DNA from: a virus
Length of the DNA: 24,635 bases
Reading direction: 5' to 3' (one strand)
Virus record (IMG/VR): IMGVR_UViG_3300031974_000277
Coordinates: 1 to 24,635 of that record
This document shows positions 11,165 to 20,497 of the stretch, piece after piece; within the stretch, counting starts at the first letter, position 1, and the number at the start of each line of letters is the position of its first letter. A program made the translations under genes and the position numbers. Under the pieces are notes generated by a model. That model was given only the letters and a program-made list of their open reading frames with translations, had not been told where the DNA came from and searched no databases.

Positions 11165-12418
11165 TTAGCTACCGCCGTCGTTTCCGATACAGAAGCTAAC
11201 AGCGTGTCGTACTGCAACGTCGCAAGTTTGCATTGCGATGATTCGTACATTACCGCTAGTAGCGCCAGCATATGGATCTACGAGGATATCAAGGCCGCTC
11301 CAAAAACCTACGAGTAGCGAGTCAAAATCGCCAAAATAGGCATCACCTGATGCAACCTGATTAGATACGATGGCCCTATAGCCATTAACCGTACCACCAG
11401 GTTCAACTACGAACTGTGCAGTTCCAGTTGCTTTCTCGGTAGTCTTCAAAGCACCTACCATCGCAGCGTTCATGATATAAGCCAAGTTTCCACGAAGAGC
11501 ATTGTCTTCAGCGACCTTGGTTTCCATTTCTACTACTTGTGGGAAAGTGGGAACTAAGATCGGTGGAGGCGTACCAAAGTCAACAGTGTTGATTCCAGCA
11601 GTGTTCTTGATACCAGTGGGTGCGCCACCAGTTCCGTCGCCTTGAAGTGCGCCCAGATCAATCGCAAGAGCAATAGCTTGAGCAAGATCATCACGAACAA
11701 GAGCTTCAACGCTTAATGATGACTGTTGCATGAGCTGTCGTGTGATGTCCGTAAACGCCCCAAGATGCCTCGGCGTCATGCTGACAGAAGATACAGTCAT
11801 TTCTGATTCAGAAACGGCAGAACCTTCAGTTACCCAGCTAGAAGCAGCAGCAGTTGCCTTCTTGGGGATCTTAACATCGCCAGAAAGGCCATTCAGCAAA
11901 CGTGCGCCAGCTTGCATGACAGAAGAAGAGTTTCGCAGAACGTCGATGAACTCACCGCCACGGAAATCATCCGTGAACAATGATGCTTCATCAGTGCTGT
12001 TCAAATCTCGCTTCCAGTTACGAAGTACATCAGCAGGAAGCATCACGCCTTGTGCTGCTCGTCCATACTGATCAGCAGCAGCTCGTGAACATTCAAATTC
12101 AAAAGCAGCGGCTTCTTGAGCACGTCGATCATGTGGGTTAGCAAGAGCGTTTACCGCACGAAGGATTGAGAAGCGCTTAACTTCTTTATCAGTCATGCCG
12201 ATATCTTCAGCTTGCAGGGCTTTCTCTGAGCCAATTGACTCAAGCAGTTCACCTCGGAACTCCTCAATTGACTTGCCATCACGAATAGCTTTCTGAGCCA
12301 TTTCGCTCTGGTTGTGTCGAGCACCAAGCTCAACGATTTGTGCAGCGTTCTTCTGTTCAGCCTTACGAGCTTCCGCTTGTACTGCTGCAACATCAACTGC
12401 GTTTTCTACGTTTTCCAT
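11165..12418 (-). CDS. Major capsid protein from an internal start (nested product)
   Basis: The ATG for Met335 of the fusion lies at 12416-12418. It is preceded by AAGGTGA (12424-12430) with a 5-nt spacer, one of the best ribosome-binding sites in the window. Initiation here would give 417 aa: the helical delta/scaffold region plus the HK97-fold capsid, a normal length for an HK97-type capsid precursor. The internal start falls exactly between the protease and capsid domains. This would let the phage make many capsid subunits per protease. It is predicted from sequence only; protein N-termini would settle it. Confidence 0.6.
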   Translation of the reverse strand: MENVENAVDVAAVQAEARKAEQKNAAQIVELGARHNQSEMAQKAIRDGKSIEEFRGELLESIGSEKALQAEDIGMTDKEVKRFSILRAVNALANPHDRRAQEAAAFEFECSRAAADQYGRAAQGVMLPADVLRNWKRDLNSTDEASLFTDDFRGGEFIDVLRNSSSVMQAGARLLNGLSGDVKIPKKATAAASSWVTEGSAVSESEMTVSSVSMTPRHLGAFTDITRQLMQQSSLSVEALVRDDLAQAIALAIDLGALQGDGTGGAPTGIKNTAGINTVDFGTPPPILVPTFPQVVEMETKVAEDNALRGNLAYIMNAAMVGALKTTEKATGTAQFVVEPGGTVNGYRAIVSNQVASGDAYFGDFDSLLVGFWSGLDILVDPYAGATSGNVRIIAMQTCDVAVRHAVSFCIGNDGGS

Positions 12419-13420
12419 AGGAATCACCTTAGAGTTTTCAGTTACAGTTATGGTGGAAAGCTCGTCTGAACGACCAACGCCGACTGTCACATCAGCAGGG
12501 ATCGATACCAAACTTGCTTCTACTGGACGCCATGACTTGGCTACGTATGTATCCTTGCCACGCTTTTCCATTTTGTTGATGGCGTAACCAACACTAATGT
12601 TAGCTTTGATGCCATCTACAACATCGTCAAACGCTTCAGCAGCGATACCGTTTCGTCCAAAACGTACCTTGGCCCGTAGTCGACGGGACTCGCTGTCGAG
12701 TTCAACAGATTCAATTTTCCCGATCTGCTGTTTTGGATCGTGATCCAGCAATAACGGGGCTCTGCCAGAAGCTAAGAATGATAAATCAATAGCTTCTTCA
12801 GAATGTTCTAATACTTCCATGCCGAAAGATCGTTCAACAGGCTCTTCTGATGATATAGCGATCATTGCTGTTCGCATTTCTTCATCGATTGGGCCTTTCT
12901 CCATATGGATAGCTCGGTATTCAACCTTAGCTGAACGCTCTTCTTCCATATGCTCTTTCATGGCTTCGTAGTCTTCATCACGCTGCTCATCTTTTGCCAA
13001 CTCAATGACAAAGGAATCCTCAGTCTCTGTGACATTTACTACGTGTCTTTCTTCTAGTTCCATATCATCAGCCCTTTCGTCTGCTGCTTCCATAGATTTT
13101 TTAATGCGTCTAACCCAAGCCTGTCCGCTGTCCCCTCCCCACAAGGCCCAGGCTATACGGCCTGCGCTTGGATATCCTTTTTCACCAGGGCTGAACCCTT
13201 CGCCTTTCTTGTCAACTTCATGCCTCGCAAAATAACTAGACATGCGATTGACTGTCTCTATCGATAACTCTCTTTTGTTAGAGATATCTCTGGCTCTGGC
13301 AACACCAACAGCAGTTCCACCCCTGCCGTATTCTTCCCGCCATTCCAGTCCACGCTTGGCCTCCTTAGCCATTGCGTCACTAGGCGTCGTGTTTATTTCT
13401 TTGCCCTTATAACTAGCCAT
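11165..13420 (-). CDS. Fused N-terminal domain / HK97 prohead protease / major capsid protein
   Basis: 751 aa in one continuous frame. Residues 15-110 form an uncharacterised domain (GRGGTAVGVARARDISNKRE, then GYPSAGRIAWALWGGD). Residues about 165-320 match HK97-type prohead protease, with probable catalytic His227 (LLLDHD) and Ser276 (NISVGY). Residues 335-415 are helical and charged, like a delta/scaffold domain. Residues about 415-751 are an HK97-fold capsid protein (SSWVTEGSAVSESEMTVSSV; late LGALQGDGTGGAPTGI). Protease and capsid are usually separate genes, but fusions are known. Self-processing should release the capsid. An internal start at residue 335 could add free capsid. The GC-rich hairpin follows. 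Confidence 0.9.
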   Translation of the reverse strand: MASYKGKEINTTPSDAMAKEAKRGLEWREEYGRGGTAVGVARARDISNKRELSIETVNRMSSYFARHEVDKKGEGFSPGEKGYPSAGRIAWALWGGDSGQAWVRRIKKSMEAADERADDMELEERHVVNVTETEDSFVIELAKDEQRDEDYEAMKEHMEEERSAKVEYRAIHMEKGPIDEEMRTAMIAISSEEPVERSFGMEVLEHSEEAIDLSFLASGRAPLLLDHDPKQQIGKIESVELDSESRRLRAKVRFGRNGIAAEAFDDVVDGIKANISVGYAINKMEKRGKDTYVAKSWRPVEASLVSIPADVTVGVGRSDELSTITVTENSKVIPMENVENAVDVAAVQAEARKAEQKNAAQIVELGARHNQSEMAQKAIRDGKSIEEFRGELLESIGSEKALQAEDIGMTDKEVKRFSILRAVNALANPHDRRAQEAAAFEFECSRAAADQYGRAAQGVMLPADVLRNWKRDLNSTDEASLFTDDFRGGEFIDVLRNSSSVMQAGARLLNGLSGDVKIPKKATAAASSWVTEGSAVSESEMTVSSVSMTPRHLGAFTDITRQLMQQSSLSVEALVRDDLAQAIALAIDLGALQGDGTGGAPTGIKNTAGINTVDFGTPPPILVPTFPQVVEMETKVAEDNALRGNLAYIMNAAMVGALKTTEKATGTAQFVVEPGGTVNGYRAIVSNQVASGDAYFGDFDSLLVGFWSGLDILVDPYAGATSGNVRIIAMQTCDVAVRHAVSFCIGNDGGS
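12424..12430 (-). promoter_or_regulatory. Internal ribosome-binding site for the capsid part
   Basis: The coding strand has AAGGTGA followed by TTCCT and ATG. It complements the 3' end of 16S rRNA (UCACCU) and stands at optimal spacing, inside the fused protease-capsid ORF. Confidence 0.65.
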
Positions 13421-13431
13421 GCTTGATTCTA

Positions 13432-14592
13432 CTAAATATCAGTGTTATGTGGAATAAGTTTAGAAGCCTTCTTGACACCCTCGTTAATCACGTTCAGTCC
13501 CGCAGTATTCGTCTCCACAAGAGCATTGACTGTCAAATCCCGAACGTCACAAGTGCCCGTACTGAAGTCTCTAACGTCTGCTATACCTCTAATAGGCATA
13601 AAGCCAGCAGTACAGCTTGAGTTTATAATCACCACGCCAGACGCCATATCTATACATACATCGCCATCTGGATCGTCTGAGGTGTGGTTGTTTAATTCTA
13701 TAGCGCCTGCATAGTTACGCAGCAATAGCTGTCCGCTTCCATTAAAGTCAATTGCTGGGTTAGGCTCGCCTGCCAGAGTATTACTGAAGCAGTCCAATGC
13801 TCCGAGCATAGCTCCAGGCTCAAGCGTTATAGTGTTATTCAAGCTGCATTGGAAAACAAAACCAGACGTGTAGGTTACGTTCAACAATACACACTGGCGA
13901 TAGATGTTATTGCCGTCCAGCGTTCCTTGTATCCTACAATTGACGAAATCACAGTTTCTTATGTTTGCAGATGGATCAAACGTCAATGTCTCAGTAACAG
14001 GGCTATCTGTGGTAAAAGCATATCCATCGCTAAAATCAACATCGGCGATAGTCATAGAGCTAAGTATTCTAATCTGATGTATGCCATTGGCATCAGCGAT
14101 CAACTTAGCATCTGCTAGGTTATTAACTGGCGTCTTTCTTGTGCCTATTGGGATGTCAGTTCCTGAGTTTGAAGAATTGACATCTACACAAACCTCTCCG
14201 TTGTATGACGCAATTAGGATAGTCGATAGATCCTGCAAGCCTGCTGAGTTAGCAGATCTAACAGAGACTTGGTTTACGTTAACCACATCACCTACGTTAC
14301 TATTAGCGCCTACGAGGTTGACGGCATACTGACCGTCCTCAAAAGTAACTGTGTAACCGTTGATGATCTCAATTACACGAGCCAGCGTTACCCCACCTAC
14401 TGTCACCGAGGTGTTATGGTTATGCGTCTTAGGCCACGGCATACCCGCAGGATCATCTTCTAAGTCCTTTAGCGTAAGTCTGAACGTATCCAGGTTTAGC
14501 TGCCGTATCTCGGTAGGCGTAGACTGAATCAGCGTAGTGTCTGCCTTTGGGACAGTTATTACGCCCGTAGGCCAATCAATGGAGATTGCCAC
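13432..14592 (-). CDS. Beta-rich structural protein with probable beta-helix (accessory head/neck block)
   Basis: I choose the GTG at 14592 (386 aa) because a perfect GGAGGT lies 7 nt upstream. An earlier GTG at 14601 overlaps that site. The N-terminal 110 residues (SIDWPTGVITVPKADTTLIQ, then ARVIEIINGYTVTFEDGQYA) look like a conserved domain I have seen in other phage structural proteins of unknown role. Residues about 180-290 carry a right-handed beta-helix pattern (NIRNCDFVNCRIQGTLDGN). The C-terminus is a short amphipathic helix. The protease-capsid gene starts 11 nt downstream. It is likely a virion surface protein or fibre; there are no catalytic motifs. Confidence 0.72.
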   Translation of the reverse strand: MAISIDWPTGVITVPKADTTLIQSTPTEIRQLNLDTFRLTLKDLEDDPAGMPWPKTHNHNTSVTVGGVTLARVIEIINGYTVTFEDGQYAVNLVGANSNVGDVVNVNQVSVRSANSAGLQDLSTILIASYNGEVCVDVNSSNSGTDIPIGTRKTPVNNLADAKLIADANGIHQIRILSSMTIADVDFSDGYAFTTDSPVTETLTFDPSANIRNCDFVNCRIQGTLDGNNIYRQCVLLNVTYTSGFVFQCSLNNTITLEPGAMLGALDCFSNTLAGEPNPAIDFNGSGQLLLRNYAGAIELNNHTSDDPDGDVCIDMASGVVIINSSCTAGFMPIRGIADVRDFSTGTCDVRDLTVNALVETNTAGLNVINEGVKKASKLIPHNTDI

Positions 14593-14785
14593 TAGTAGCA
14601 CCTCCGCTGAATAATTTAACCTGCAATGCTTGGATCTGTCTTCGCATATCGTCCATCTGTGCCTTAGACCATAGGATTTCAGCCTCTAAGACTGCTACCT
14701 TGTTCTCTAAGTCATTGATCAACATAGTATTTCTCTTTGAATGATCAAATACTGTGTTGATGTTACGTTCTAGCACGTTACTCAT
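14576..14785 (-). CDS. Small coiled-coil protein
   Basis: 69 aa, overlapping the genes on both sides (8 nt upstream; 17 nt downstream with the chosen start). Residues 20-58 form a clear heptad coiled coil (LINDLENKVAVLEAEILW, then MDDMRRQIQALQVKLF), followed by a short Gly-rich tail. Its last codons contain the GGAGGT ribosome-binding site for the next gene. It probably trimerises or ties together the large beta-rich neighbours. I do not recognise a named family. Confidence 0.75.
   Translation of the reverse strand: MSNVLERNINTVFDHSKRNTMLINDLENKVAVLEAEILWSKAQMDDMRRQIQALQVKLFSGGATSGNLH
14600..14605 (-). promoter_or_regulatory. Ribosome-binding site GGAGGT that fixes the 14592 GTG start
   Basis: A perfect GGAGGT on the coding strand with a 7-nt spacer to the GTG at 14592. 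The alternative GTG at 14601 begins inside this site and cannot use it. Confidence 0.8.
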
Positions 14786-16535
14786 CAGGGATCATGCTTA
14801 CTGTTAAGTCAGTATCATTAGAGCTAGAAATAGTTCCGCTTATTGTTGTTGACTTGTAAAAAACACCGCTAGAAGCGAGTCTAACGTTACCCGTATACGG
14901 TTGATCACTAGAGTAGCTTCTAGTATCACTTACCTGCCCACTACCGTTTGTTAGAGCCTTGTCAATAATCACTGTGCCTTCTGTCAGTGCACCACCTGCT
15001 GCTGCCGTAACATAGACTCTAGCGTTTTGTAGTGCTGAACCAGTATTAATATCCTGAACCGTTACCGTAAATGTACGTTGCCCAGCTACAACATTTACCG
15101 TTGCACCTGCGCTTCTGATAGATGGGATTGTTGCTCCATCAGCTACGTTTATTGTCAAAGAGCCGCTTGAGGTGCTGACGTAAATTGTTTCACTTCCTGT
15201 AGACGTTGGAGTAACAGGACTGCCTGTTGCGCCAGCATCATAGTCAACCGCAGTACAGTCCCAAGTCATAGTGCCACTGCCGACAGAAGTTACCTGTACT
15301 GCATGGCCTGATGTACCTTTTACAAATCTACAAGATGATAAGTTGCTCAAATCAGAGGTCACAGTCGCTGTAAGTCCTATGCCTTCTATAAATGAACAGG
15401 AAACTAAAGATGCGTCTGCGTGAAAGGCAGGTTGGCAATTTACGAACGAACAATCACTTGCAGTGGAACCAGAAGTAAAAACCACAGAACCGCAATCGAC
15501 TAGCGTATTTCCTCTAAACTTGTGGTTAGAAGAATCAAAGCTAAGTGTGCCACGTATGTTTTCTAAAGTGCATCCTAGCCAATCTCCTGTTTCTACATTT
15601 CCGTCCGAAAAATCAATGCCCGTAGTGTAAGTACCATTACCAACAAAGCTGATACCATTTCGCCCGTCTGTAGTGCCTACCTCCTGTCCAAGTTTTAGGC
15701 TCTGATTACCAGCACCTCCAACCACCTCTATGCCGAAATAAGTAACCGGTACAGTTCTCGTGGTCTGGACGCCGTTGTAGTACTTGGGTTCTGCGACAAA
15801 AATCTTTGAGTCTTCATCGGTAATTGTAGAGGCTGCGGTCGTGTCTCCTAGTATCAATTTCCCCGCTAATTCAAAAGCTGTATCTGAATCGTTTAGCGAT
15901 GTAACAATACCGTATCTGTTAGCCTCTTCGTTTGCCGCTAACTCCTTAAACAACCCATCAGTGCTGGTGCCTGTGACTGTAATACCAGTGCCGACATCGA
16001 TAGAATCAACAATCAAGTTGTCAAATCGTGCGGTTGTGTTGCCGACATCAGCGAACAGCCCGATATAACGGATTGATCCAGTGTTTATAGCCGTTCCTGA
16101 AGAGGTGGTTGCGCTTAACGTCGGGTCAAGAATAAATCTTTTCCACCCACCTGCGTATGTGTCCGCACCGTCAAACGTCCAGCAATGATACTGACCAGTT
16201 CCTGGCGTTGATGATTCTAAAAAAACACCAAACCCGTTAGCGTTCTGGTTATTGAGCAGTGCAGCAGCTAGGAAGTTTCCCCAGATATATATCATCTGGC
16301 CCTCGTTAGCGCCGCCTACGCCAAAATCTAACTCGTTTCCTGCACCAACATCATAGTAAAGAGCAACAAACTGCCTAGATACCGTAGCCGTAACAGCTCC
16401 GCTCCCTTCAATAGCACCATCAGCGGCGGCGGCAGACGGGCCTCCGCCTGTACCGCTAATCTTTAAAGCAGTCCAACCCGTCAACGAGTCGGCTGCGTTG
16501 ATAGGCGTACCGTTGAAGGCGACGGAAACTGTCAT
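14778..16535 (-). CDS. Large beta-rich structural protein with beta-helix and Ig-like C-terminus
   Basis: 585 aa, starting at an ATG sharing bases with the previous stop (TAATG). Three regions are visible. Residues 1-190 are a jelly-roll-like beta domain with aromatic patches (YHCWTFDGADTYAGGWKRF). Residues about 290-440 have a beta-helix ladder with recurring xCxFxxC rungs (SDCSFVNC, SSCRFVKG). Residues about 480-585 look like an Ig-like or carboxypeptidase-regulatory beta sandwich (FTVTVQDINTGSALQNARVY). There is no signal peptide or enzymatic motif. It probably forms an appendage or decoration. The role is inferred from fold pattern and neighbours only. Confidence 0.72.
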   Translation of the reverse strand: MTVSVAFNGTPINAADSLTGWTALKISGTGGGPSAAAADGAIEGSGAVTATVSRQFVALYYDVGAGNELDFGVGGANEGQMIYIWGNFLAAALLNNQNANGFGVFLESSTPGTGQYHCWTFDGADTYAGGWKRFILDPTLSATTSSGTAINTGSIRYIGLFADVGNTTARFDNLIVDSIDVGTGITVTGTSTDGLFKELAANEEANRYGIVTSLNDSDTAFELAGKLILGDTTAASTITDEDSKIFVAEPKYYNGVQTTRTVPVTYFGIEVVGGAGNQSLKLGQEVGTTDGRNGISFVGNGTYTTGIDFSDGNVETGDWLGCTLENIRGTLSFDSSNHKFRGNTLVDCGSVVFTSGSTASDCSFVNCQPAFHADASLVSCSFIEGIGLTATVTSDLSNLSSCRFVKGTSGHAVQVTSVGSGTMTWDCTAVDYDAGATGSPVTPTSTGSETIYVSTSSGSLTINVADGATIPSIRSAGATVNVVAGQRTFTVTVQDINTGSALQNARVYVTAAAGGALTEGTVIIDKALTNGSGQVSDTRSYSSDQPYTGNVRLASSGVFYKSTTISGTISSSNDTDLTVSMIPDE

Positions 16536-18262
16536 TAGGCATCACTTGTGCGAATCGCTGCTACTGAACCGCCGTTAGTTCCCAAGGTTGCACCAGTGAT
16601 GAACTCCTTGATCGGACTAGCACCACCGTCTCTGACCTTAACTACTAGATCTCTATCGGCATTGTATACCGCAGTGAATGTTGCTGACGCTGCGCTTGCA
16701 AGCTCGTCGATATACGAAATAAAGACGTTTTTGCCTGATGCTGATGCATTAGCAAATGTTCCTGTACATCCCGTGAAGTCTGATCCTGAGAATCCAGTAT
16801 AGTTCACCAAGACATAGAATCCAGAATCATCTTCTACACGGATCGTACCTGCTGATGGAGTATCGCTTGGGATCGTTGTGCTTACGCTAAACGTGCTAGG
16901 TACTGAGCCAACAGATACAGCCGTAGCAGACGCTAACTGTGCCGTGTCCAGCGTAGTACCGCCAGAAGACGGGCCTACTAGTACCCTGTCTTCACCACTA
17001 ATCAAACCAGTAACGCTAAACGTCACATTGTTTGGGGGCGTGATCTGAGTATTTGTTAAGTCAAACACTTTGTCGTTTGGCCCCAAGTCAGCAGGCGTTA
17101 CACCGACACCGTAAGCGCCAATGATCGCTGAACCCGTAGATACACCAAGTCCTGGCGCAGAAGTAGATTCTACTGTGCGCTCTGTAGCAGTTCCTGAAGT
17201 GGTTGCAGTTGCGCTAGATGTTCCACCAGTTATCAGCGTAGATCCAGCAGGTGCTGAACCTGTCAAGAGCTGAATATACATCTTGGTTGCAGATGATGCT
17301 GTAGTATTATCAATGGCGAGCATTTGACCAGTACCGCCAGTCCAGCTGACAGGCTCAAAAGCGCTAAACGTTCCTGAGTTAGTACCACTTAATGAAAGCT
17401 CATGAGTAACACCACGGAACAGTAGACCATTCAAACCAAACAACGTTTCAGCCGTGCCATTTCGTGTTACGTACTTCACGTATTCATAGAGATCATTGAT
17501 CGCTGTACGAGTACCAAGATCCCACTGAATGTAGTAGTTCTCATCAGTGCCGTTATTATCTACGTCTAAGGAAACATAGCCAACAGTCGTTGCAGAAGTG
17601 TCATAAGCTGCAACAGTTCCAGAAGCTGTAGCATTGTTTAAGTCAGTTGCTCTTGATAATGCTAGAACGTTGTTACCACGAGACGTAGCAGAAATCGCAA
17701 ACTCTGCATATGTAAAACCATAGTCACGAGACAAACCAAGCAGTCTTCGTCCGTCAGTATCAGCACCGCCAGTCCGTACTTTAACCATGAACCGATGCGA
17801 GATACCGCCAGCAGGATCAGAGTTAAGGCCTAAGCTGTTACCTTGCGGATCGTTGTTCCACCAGTCATCAGCGATAACTGTTCCATTCTGAACAACCTGA
17901 ATCGTTGGAGCGTTACCAAAGTTTACGATGCCGTCATAGATAACATCACCTGATGACTGAATGATTGATCCGTCATACAAATGCTCACTGGCTGCGTCAT
18001 CAATGTTATAAGAACCTAGCAGTGTGATAATGTTATCTGTTGAACGATCAGACGGGTTATCGTCTGTAATGTCTAGCTGATCATCACCGCTAGAAGACGC
18101 ATCATCGGCAAAGTCTTGTAAAGCTCGGTGAAATTCAATCACCGTAGCATAAGTTGGAGTCGTTCGTCCGTTAGATCCCGCAGTGCCGTCGTGGTCTGCA
18201 CCTATGTAACGGATGTTCCCTGATGAGCGGGTAATCTCCCAGTCAAGTGGTTCAAAAGCCAT
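16535..18262 (-). CDS. Large beta-rich phage structural protein, function unknown
   Basis: 575 aa. It has a strong ribosome-binding site (GAGGTGA at 18266-18272) overlapping the stop of the collagen-like gene. The N-terminal 200 residues (MAFEPLDWEITRSSGNIRYI; then WWNNDPQGNSLGLN and GGISHRFMVKVRTGG) look like a conserved domain of phage structural proteins. The rest is Thr/Ser/Gly-rich beta sequence, ending in DLVVKVRDGGASPIKEF and a short tail. No catalytic residues or membrane segments are evident. It is the first large gene of the accessory block, so it may be the scaffold to which the collagen-like and beta-helix proteins attach. This is inference. Confidence 0.72.
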   Translation of the reverse strand: MAFEPLDWEITRSSGNIRYIGADHDGTAGSNGRTTPTYATVIEFHRALQDFADDASSSGDDQLDITDDNPSDRSTDNIITLLGSYNIDDAASEHLYDGSIIQSSGDVIYDGIVNFGNAPTIQVVQNGTVIADDWWNNDPQGNSLGLNSDPAGGISHRFMVKVRTGGADTDGRRLLGLSRDYGFTYAEFAISATSRGNNVLALSRATDLNNATASGTVAAYDTSATTVGYVSLDVDNNGTDENYYIQWDLGTRTAINDLYEYVKYVTRNGTAETLFGLNGLLFRGVTHELSLSGTNSGTFSAFEPVSWTGGTGQMLAIDNTTASSATKMYIQLLTGSAPAGSTLITGGTSSATATTSGTATERTVESTSAPGLGVSTGSAIIGAYGVGVTPADLGPNDKVFDLTNTQITPPNNVTFSVTGLISGEDRVLVGPSSGGTTLDTAQLASATAVSVGSVPSTFSVSTTIPSDTPSAGTIRVEDDSGFYVLVNYTGFSGSDFTGCTGTFANASASGKNVFISYIDELASAASATFTAVYNADRDLVVKVRDGGASPIKEFITGATLGTNGGSVAAIRTSDA

Positions 18263-18270
18263 TCTTCACC

Positions 18271-18978
18271 TCAGATATTTATTTGTTTCTCAGCTAGTAA
18301 ACCCGTCAACGTATCCGTTGCGGAATCATAATTTGAATAAAACGCATCAGCAGGATTTCCCACTAACCTATACGCAGTTGTCCCGCCGTTGTAAGTATAC
18401 TGGTAAACATCGCCTTCTGCGATTGTTTCTAACAACGTAGGCTCAGTTGAAAACCCAGTTGCGTAATCAGTCCAAGTCAAACCACGGCCACCAGAATAAT
18501 ACTGGTTGGTCATATTGAATTTGATCCATTCGCCGAACTCGCCAGGACGTTGCTCAAACGCTATGGCTCCGTTTTGAATCTTGTGGCGTGGAATTCTTCC
18601 TGATCGTCCGTCTGCGCCTTTCTTACCTTGTGCGCCAACGTCACCCTTCTCACCTTTATCGCCTTTTGGCCCTTTATCACCCTTTGGGCCTTGTAATCCT
18701 GGCTCACCACGTTCGCCCTTGTCACCTTTCGGGCCTTGTGCCCCTGGCGCTCCTCTCGGGCCTTGATCACCTTGCCTACCGTCTTGACCAGCTAATCCCT
18801 CTGGGCCTCTATCGCCACGCTCACCCGTTTCGCCCTTATCACCTTTGTCACCAGGGATAAGTTTGAACTTACGGACTTTCTCTATTTGATCCGCAAGCTC
18901 TTCAACGTCTTGTTGTCGCTTATCATCAAGCCTCTGTAGACGTTCAACGAATAACGCAATGGCCTGATTAATCTTCAA
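18271..18978 (-). CDS. Collagen-like protein
   Basis: 235 aa with a TTG start at 18978 inside the end of the portal gene; AAGGG lies 9 nt upstream. No ATG occurs in frame before residue 156. Residues 1-40 are a charged helix, probably a trimeric coiled coil. Residues 43-126 are 28 uninterrupted Gly-X-Y triplets, rich in KGD, KGE and PKG, which stabilise triple helices without hydroxyproline. Residues 130-235 form a small C-terminal domain (WIKFNMTNQYYSGGRGLTW) that may be the trimeric tip. It is likely a rod-like virion fibre. Collagen-like phage fibres are known, but this place beside the portal suggests a head or neck fibre. Confidence 0.85.
   Translation of the reverse strand: MKINQAIALFVERLQRLDDKRQQDVEELADQIEKVRKFKLIPGDKGDKGETGERGDRGPEGLAGQDGRQGDQGPRGAPGAQGPKGDKGERGEPGLQGPKGDKGPKGDKGEKGDVGAQGKKGADGRSGRIPRHKIQNGAIAFEQRPGEFGEWIKFNMTNQYYSGGRGLTWTDYATGFSTEPTLLETIAEGDVYQYTYNGGTTAYRLVGNPADAFYSNYDSATDTLTGLLAEKQINI
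18601..18852 (-). repeat. Collagen repeat: 28 Gly-X-Y triplets
   Basis: A 252-nt stretch with glycine at every third codon from residue 43 to 124 of the collagen-like protein, without interruption. Recurrent blocks encode GPKGDKGE-type units, so the DNA is itself repetitive and could change length by slippage. Confidence 0.92.
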
Positions 18979-20497
18979 CGCTGAACGCCCTTTTCAGACT
19001 TTCTGCTAAGGCTTCGTTTAGATCTCGCTCTGATTCGTCTTCTGGTACTGGCTCTTCCCGACTAGCCCCGTAAGGCTCAATAGCATACTGAACACCAAAT
19101 TGTTCTGCGAGCGCTTTATCTCTTGCGATCTGAGAAAGTAGCTCTTCTGTGTCCATCCCATACTGACTAGCAACATGCCCTAGAGAAAGGATGCCGTTCT
19201 GCAACCCTGTCACAGCAGCAGTCATTTCCTTCTGCGGATCTACCCAACTGAAGCCTCGACCACGGAACTCTGCCGCTACTGAGAATTTCTCGTATTGCGT
19301 AAGAGGAATCCCGAATGCATCAACCTGCATTGCAGCGTCTAGCCACTTGTCAAACACGATTCGGACGAAGTGCTCAATGAAGAACGATGTCATATTCTTA
19401 TAAAAGTCTCGTTCCTCTAGCGCTCCCTGTCGGATACTTGAGTACGACGTAGCCTCTAAGTCGTTTGACAGGCTGGTATACGAAACACCCAATCCACTGG
19501 CGATACCTCGCAAGATAGACTTGTGGAATGCGTCAAATTCGTTATTAGGAAAGGCAGGCTCAAAGGATTGGAAGTCAACGCCTTGCGGAAGATTGTGAAA
19601 CGTCCCAGGTTCGGCCGAGATAATCGGTGCAGCCCCGTCATAGTCGTCCGCTAAGAACCCATCACCGCCAGATGTCTTGAAGAAACCCATCTTAGACGCA
19701 CCAACTCGTGCGTTAATTACCGCAGCTTCACGGAATGCGCCTAGCTGTTTGATCGCAGGGATTGCTGGTGCAAGCCAAGGCTCGCCTCTAGTCTGGCCTG
19801 GGCGAATCTGCTTAAACAGATGAATAACTCTATCAGCAGAGATTCTGACGTGCTTAGGGCTTTTCTTAGACGTTGTGTAGTCATAATCGCCTGGATGATA
19901 CGTCAAAATGTGATATGCGATAGGTTTCTTGAACTGGTTAAGCTCAACACCCATTCGTATCTCGTTTCCACCGTCTAATTTCTTGTTTAACTGCTCATCG
20001 ACTTGATCTGCCTCCAAAAACTCCAACGCAATGGAGTCTCTGAACTCAGCGCCACGATGAACCACCAAAAAAGCCTCGCCATCCTTGGCAAGTAGCTCAA
20101 CAGCGAGCTTTTGTATATCAATCCATGATAACTTGCCGCAAACAGTCGGATTTCCGAACTTGCCCCACATTTTGAAGGCATTTTCCACTGCTTGGTTGCC
20201 TGATTGGTCTAAATTACCGACCGAATCAAGGGCTTTTGACTGCAAAAACACGCCTTTTTCGCCTACTACGTTGACTTTTAGCAGCTCAAAATAGCGCCTT
20301 GCGTACTCGTTATTCATCGCCAAATCACGGGATCTGTTCCGTAATGGCTTGATTGCATTGCGTAATTCGCTGTCAGCAGAACGCTCAGAAGACGTAAAAT
20401 CAGCAAATAAACGCCCCGTATTAACGGCTGCGTACTCTCTTTTAACGATTTGCTGCGCCTTTTTAGGCGATTGCTTGAAAATATCTAGTATTCCCAT
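18968..20497 (-). CDS. Portal protein (lambda gpB-like)
   Basis: 509 aa, starting at an ATG that overlaps the stop of the gpW-like gene by one base (TGATG). Portal hallmarks are the N-terminal NNEYARRYFELLKVNVVGEK segment, a VIHLFKQIRPGQTRGEPWL wing/stem region, the conserved GLGVSYTSLSNDLEATSYSS stretch and RGFSWVDPQKEM near the C-terminus. This is the lambda-type portal family. It forms the dodecameric vertex through which DNA is packaged and to which the gpW/FII connector binds. The length is close to lambda gpB (533 aa). The C-terminal codons host the TTG start of the collagen-like gene. Confidence 0.93.
   Translation of the reverse strand: MGILDIFKQSPKKAQQIVKREYAAVNTGRLFADFTSSERSADSELRNAIKPLRNRSRDLAMNNEYARRYFELLKVNVVGEKGVFLQSKALDSVGNLDQSGNQAVENAFKMWGKFGNPTVCGKLSWIDIQKLAVELLAKDGEAFLVVHRGAEFRDSIALEFLEADQVDEQLNKKLDGGNEIRMGVELNQFKKPIAYHILTYHPGDYDYTTSKKSPKHVRISADRVIHLFKQIRPGQTRGEPWLAPAIPAIKQLGAFREAAVINARVGASKMGFFKTSGGDGFLADDYDGAAPIISAEPGTFHNLPQGVDFQSFEPAFPNNEFDAFHKSILRGIASGLGVSYTSLSNDLEATSYSSIRQGALEERDFYKNMTSFFIEHFVRIVFDKWLDAAMQVDAFGIPLTQYEKFSVAAEFRGRGFSWVDPQKEMTAAVTGLQNGILSLGHVASQYGMDTEELLSQIARDKALAEQFGVQYAIEPYGASREEPVPEDESERDLNEALAESLKRAFSVED

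Follow-up and report, generated by a model that had tools for sequence, protein, structure and literature searches.

A probable nested start for the capsid-protein precursor within a protease-scaffold-capsid fusion gene of a marine phage

The stretch of marine phage DNA analysed here (IMG/VR record IMGVR_UViG_3300031974_000277, positions 1 to 24,635, hereafter called the window) carries, on its minus strand, a protease-shell fusion ORF of 751 aa (13420-11165) in which a module at the N-terminus is followed by a prohead protease of the S78 type, a scaffold (delta) domain and a major capsid protein (MCP) of the HK97 type. We consider it highly probable that the ATG at codon 335 of this ORF (ATG335) is a genuine internal translation start, which would make the 3′ part of the fusion a nested MCP-precursor gene, with a weak start for the long chain, a strong internal start for the short one, co-assembly of the two and removal of the scaffold. 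The features involved are the following.

11165-13420, minus strand: fused ORF, with matches to PF04586, PF05065, NF045541, TIGR01554 and phrog_617
13037-13420, minus strand: N-terminal folded module, about residues 1-128 (AF2 pLDDT about 90 over residues 1-120; phrog_2859 at residues 10-117)
12509-12880, minus strand: S78-like prohead protease domain, about residues 181-304 (PF04586, TIGR01543, beta-rich model, H227/S276)
12392-12487, minus strand: disordered linker of hypervariable sequence, residues 312-343 (pLDDT <50; alignment)
12424-12430, minus strand: internal Shine-Dalgarno (SD) sequence AAGGTGA, preceded by a T (duplex energy -6.9 kcal/mol)
12419-12423, minus strand: 5-nt spacer TTCCT between AAGGTGA and ATG335
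12416-12418, minus strand: internal ATG, Met335, kept in all homologues of the window's clade
11165-12418, minus strand: putative nested gene for a 417-aa capsid-protein precursor, scaffold/delta plus MCP (constant product length; TIGR01554 alignment)
11990-12418, minus strand: scaffold (delta) part, residues 335-477, helical at 344-452 (model; boundary inferred from the 8GTA alignment)
11168-11989, minus strand: predicted mature MCP, about residues 478-751 (8gta_A alignment and Foldseek; presumed cleavage point)

The fused gene and its internal start site

The encoded protein is a member of phrog_617 (fused head proteins), its own family, which it matches over nearly its full length (residues 165-747, E=9.6e-147). 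At the C-terminus, Pfam recognises the HK97-type capsid domain (PF05065, residues 490-747, E=1.1e-42), and the prohead protease is matched by PF04586 (residues 211-311, E=2e-4, 22.0 bits against a gathering score of 21) and, under that profile's own cut-off, by TIGR01543 (E=5e-8). H227 and S276, which we take to be the catalytic pair of a protease with the predicted S78 activity, are invariant in a 57-sequence alignment. The match to the whole-protein profile NF045541 (scaf_prot_MCP2) is confined to residues 178-442 and, at 145.8 bits, falls short of the curated cut-off of 525. TIGR01554, which describes stand-alone HK97 MCPs, first aligns at residue 353 with position 6 of the profile; M335 is thus located approximately where a separate MCP gene would begin.

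An AlphaFold model of the 751-aa protein, built on the 57-sequence alignment (mean pLDDT 79), contains four parts: residues 1-128 form a helical N-terminal module, 181-304 a beta-rich protease, 344-452 the helices of the scaffold and 491-747 the capsid domain, with pLDDT below 50 in residues 312-343 and in most of 128-175. M335 is found in the low-confidence linker between the last protease strands (to residue 304) and the first scaffold helix (344-368), which begins nine residues after it, and the structure prediction therefore agrees with a preliminary description of this DNA that had located ATG335 at the junction of protease and capsid precursor. The same description spoke of a protease-capsid fusion; both parts were found, but the ORF also has a folded module at its N-terminus (about residues 1-128), and the 417-aa product contains the scaffold as well. 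Among solved structures, the capsid of roseophage R4C (8GTA) is the nearest in both sequence and fold: Foldseek returns 8gta_A as the best match to the model, with the HK97 and D3 capsids among the next, and residue 481 of the window protein is aligned to position 4 of the 8gta chain, which has 268 residues.

Around the junction, the minus strand reads TCT AAG GTG ATT CCT ATG, the ATG being in frame as codon 335, and the product expected from it (scaffold plus capsid protein) has 417 aa. The arrangement first noticed from the letters, AAGGTGA followed by a 5-nt spacer and an in-frame ATG at residue 335, is indeed present at 12430-12424 and 12418-12416. Among the 24 in-frame ATGs of the ORF, ATG335 alone has a strong SD: its anti-SD duplex energy is -6.9 kcal/mol, compared with -4.4 for the next best (M120) and -0.4 for the first ATG of the ORF. 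A value of -6.9 kcal/mol is reached by 19 of the 448 ATGs (4.2%) on the minus strand of the window, true gene starts included.

M120 itself (13061-13063; SD -4.4 kcal/mol) is a weaker start candidate, situated between the N-terminal module and the protease and near the ORF beginnings of close relatives, and might give rise to a third nested form. Regulation of the internal start by RNA structure was also considered, since the start region in the window folds slightly better than shuffled sequences (z=-2.25), an effect that could modestly damp initiation. Nevertheless, it was set aside, as such structure is absent as a common feature of the clade, where the start region is less structured than the rest of the ORF (mean z +0.98).

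Conservation of the site in the window's clade and in other fusions

For comparison, 80 relatives of the fusion were retrieved from IMG/VR. Methionine occupies the aligned place in all 80 and in the window, while the other linker residues are variable, and an SD-like sequence is found upstream of it in the relatives. In an anchored nucleotide profile of 28 representatives, position -11 is A in 26, -10 is G in 27 and -9 is G in 25, with variable neighbours, and the residue that follows the internal Met is S, T or E. The SD matches begin in all three codon phases and encode different peptides (KV, KE, RS, RG, EE and EG), which indicates that it is the nucleotide sequence, and not the protein, that has been kept. 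The combination of ATG and SD was found in 30/30 non-redundant members of the window's clade, as opposed to 22% of windows of the same size elsewhere in the same ORFs. Conservation at the nucleotide level had been set beforehand as a test of the proposed start, and the outcome is that every one of these members has the site, although the linker peptide and the SD phase vary. In this clade, the SD is stronger than in synonymous shuffles (p=4e-4) and than with permuted linker codons (p=7e-16), p-values that count the representatives as independent, which is true only in part. The mean SD energy is -7.1 kcal/mol for the internal starts and -2.2 kcal/mol for other in-frame ATGs.

The lengths of the two parts of the fusion behave very differently. 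In 44 distinct complete relatives, the part upstream of the internal Met varies from 180 to 506 aa (sd 76), whereas the internal product is always 408-418 aa long (sd 2.9). Complete full-length chains in the window's clade range from 595 to 919 aa. We conclude that the internal start site is under selective maintenance in the window's clade, above chance; like the site itself, the domain boundary and the constant product length, this is established from the sequences. As to the N-terminal part, the closest relatives (87-92% identical) are devoid of the window's first ~130 residues, and in others this highly modular part is replaced or extended, the extra N-terminal domains of some relatives including Hva1_TUDOR (PF11160).

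The Met is also present at the aligned place in 18/18 named phages, 15 of which have an SD (threshold of -4 kcal/mol, anywhere in the linker). These phages are Roseobacter CRP-811, -821 and -406; Synechococcus S-CBS1 and S-LBS1; Escherichia ep3; Salmonella PT1; Acinetobacter Alexa; Xanthomonas M29; Achromobacter Mano; Pseudomonas Persinger and PPpW-3; Rhodobacter RcCronus; Dinoroseobacter R4C; Vibrio VP882; Burkholderia Mica; Halomonas phiHAP-1; and Serratia MQ-4. The SD bearers include VP882, ep3, R4C and CRP-811, and an internal Met with an SD is also found in E. coli phage HeidiAbel_Bas97 (Bas97), where the ATG is codon 217 and GAGGG stands before it. A nested CDS is annotated in none of the 18 records, which give the long ORF alone. 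In the wider family, with linkers delimited by alignment-anchored columns, ATG is present in 153/154 distinct linkers (control 71-91%, depending on the group) and, outside the window's clade, in 46/47 non-redundant members; the sole linker without ATG (L105) has GTG with a strong SD. In a maximum-likelihood tree, the SD-bearing rows (51/64) are spread over all the main clades. The synonymous test by itself is not significant outside the window's clade, partly because the linker peptides are rich in Glu, Lys and Gly. The retrieved sets, whose composition favours the architecture of the query, contained no unfused ("split") close homologue with its MCP gene starting at the conserved Met.

The expectation that homologues would carry the internal site holds, with respect to the Met/ATG, in essentially the whole family, but not entirely with respect to the SD, which is mostly missing in a marine/cyanophage subclade (S-CBS1, S-LBS1 and most of L144-L216). 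In this subclade, the Met is kept and is followed by acidic residues at the scaffold start, a pyrimidine-rich sequence is located where the SD would be, and the linker codon permutation test is null (p=0.53), although neighbouring genes in the same contigs do use SDs. Either initiation is SD-independent in these phages or the internal site is unused; the SD-driven version is, consequently, not universal.

Similar junctions occur in other fusions. Pseudomonas phage MD8 (L100) is a separately assembled fusion, as it joins a ClpP-type protease to a Mu-type MCP. At its junction there is an ATG (codon 220) with a GGAG SD, kept in 13/13 representatives; in this type, conservation extends to the upstream peptide, and the synonymous test gives a neutral result. 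In Stenotrophomonas phage S1 (L299) and its relatives, S78-like or ClpP-like proteases (in the relatives, typed by sequence) are joined to a related Mu-type MCP, and the non-redundant linkers have ATG in 41/42 cases and SD in 35/42 (control 29%; permutation p=2e-19). The presence of ATG and SD at MD8- and S1-type junctions suggests that nested starts have arisen repeatedly in response to the fused layout. We are inclined to believe, with some reserve, that a nested start for the capsid protein recurs as a rule among protease-capsid fusions, and that fusions of S78 with HK97-type MCP and of ClpP-type or S78-like proteases with Mu-type MCP have converged on a linker SD-ATG. If so, an MCP gene would have escaped annotation in many tailed-phage genomes, and the rare long form, its N-terminus being free, would offer a place for loading extra domains into the prohead.

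Proposed mechanism and alternative readings

From these data we infer initiation at ATG335, an unequal ratio of products, their co-assembly and subsequent cleavage, so that one ORF would give little protease and much capsid. The weak upstream start would produce the full-length chain in small amounts, and the strong SD of ATG335 would direct bulk synthesis of the 417-aa scaffold-MCP precursor. Long and short chains would then co-assemble through their common scaffold and MCP domains, and the protease, along with any module at the N-terminus, would enter the prohead on a minority of the shell subunits. There, the protease would cut off the scaffold domain (about residues 335-477), leaving a shell protein of ~274 aa with the HK97 fold. 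Translation from the first start alone would instead mean one protease per shell subunit. For scale, the shell of R4C consists of 415 MCP copies, the product of ORF 006, which belongs to the family of the window fusion (PMC10276861), and the deposited R4C chain (8GTA) corresponds to the C-terminal 268 residues of that product.

Such one-to-one synthesis is nevertheless what a single polyprotein would entail, i.e., all shell subunits being made full-length and trimmed by the protease, with the internal ATG unused. The papers on MD8 (PMC8508860) and Murka (PMC10892653) treat protease, scaffold and MCP as a single gene or as one propeptide of 684 aa, phage records annotate the long ORF only, and this reading could hold in the SD-poor subclade. 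However, each shell would be loaded with hundreds of proteases and with N-terminal parts of up to ~500 aa, and it would be left unexplained why the long ORF begins in the window with almost no SD, and why an invariant Met is accompanied, in a linker that is otherwise hypervariable, by an SD whose codon phase differs between relatives. We regard it as improbable, although it is the least improbable of the alternatives.

The invariant Met could also be accounted for by its protein context, if it or its surroundings were, for instance, a self-cleavage site at which the protease frees the MCP, rather than a start codon. In fact, the prohead protease has to cut somewhere between itself and the MCP. 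Yet the flanking residues vary freely (EESI|M, KETE|M, VIP|M, GDP|M), only the Met being fixed, and at positions -11 to -9 it is the nucleotides that are conserved, in differing codon phases, an objection that is weaker for the MD8-type fusions, in which the upstream peptide itself is conserved. A cleavage site therefore seems very unlikely to us. We give equally little credit to the idea that ATG and SD are now-dispensable relics of an MCP gene that once stood alone and was recently joined to the protease gene when the latter lost its stop codon. Such an origin would fit with the coincidence of the internal Met with the beginning of stand-alone MCP profiles and with the fact that unfused protease-MCP gene pairs are the common, usual arrangement; a relic should decay, however, and ATG is found in the 30/30 window-clade and 46/47 other members mentioned above, across highly diverged linkers, the L105 exception being a GTG with a strong SD.

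Comparison with known systems and genomic neighbourhood

A nested start at ATG335 would have well-known counterparts. In lambda C/Nu3 and Mu I/Z, translation that begins in frame where protease and scaffold meet yields a protease-free protein with the same C-terminus, and that nested product is the scaffold only, the MCP being encoded by a separate gene (gpE in lambda). The likeness to Nu3 within C that had been pointed out for the window is thus valid for the design, an in-phase internal ATG with its ribosome-binding site at the protease/scaffold junction, but not for the product, which here would comprise scaffold and whole MCP, as all of the capsid protein lies within the nested frame. Herpesvirus UL26/UL26.5 likewise combines a protease-scaffold protein with a nested, in-phase and more abundant scaffold form; the short form has its own transcript and no MCP, whereas the fusion has an SD internal to the ORF as its signal. 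With HK97 gp4/gp5 the fusion shares the S78-type protease, the N-terminal delta domain as scaffold and the HK97-fold MCP, and the 417-aa product has the layout of gp5 (385 aa). By contrast, HK97 has two separate genes, and in the single ORF described here the internal start would replace the start of the second.

The fused layout of the window is the same as in phrog_617, NF045541, MD8 gp5, the Xanthomonas phage Murka and R4C ORF 006. In the descriptions of the MD8 (PMC8508860) and Murka (PMC10892653) fusions an internal start is unmentioned, and we found no report of one in protease-MCP fusions in the open-licence literature. In the phages studied here, judging by their junction sequences, a separate nested MCP gene is very probably expressed in bulk, and it is not described in the phage records or the literature found. 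Published work on the fusions has left open how one ORF yields several hundred shell subunits together with a small dose of protease, a question that the conserved internal start would answer. Moreover, a nested start would correct the start of the capsid gene in many phage genomes, with consequences for work on structure, expression and engineering, and it predicts the exact N-termini of the precursors, which isolates such as Bas97 and R4C would allow to be verified. It would also explain how the N-terminal part can vary between 180 and 506 aa and gain domains without disturbing the shell.

As to the neighbourhood of the fusion gene, five ORFs (13432-18978 of the window) are located between it and the portal gene (18968-20497). 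The ORFs of 389, 585 and 575 aa in this interval have no Pfam or PHROG family match, and the ORF at 18271-18978 contains collagen repeats (PF01391). In related Roseobacter phages, the portal gene is found directly upstream of the fusion gene.
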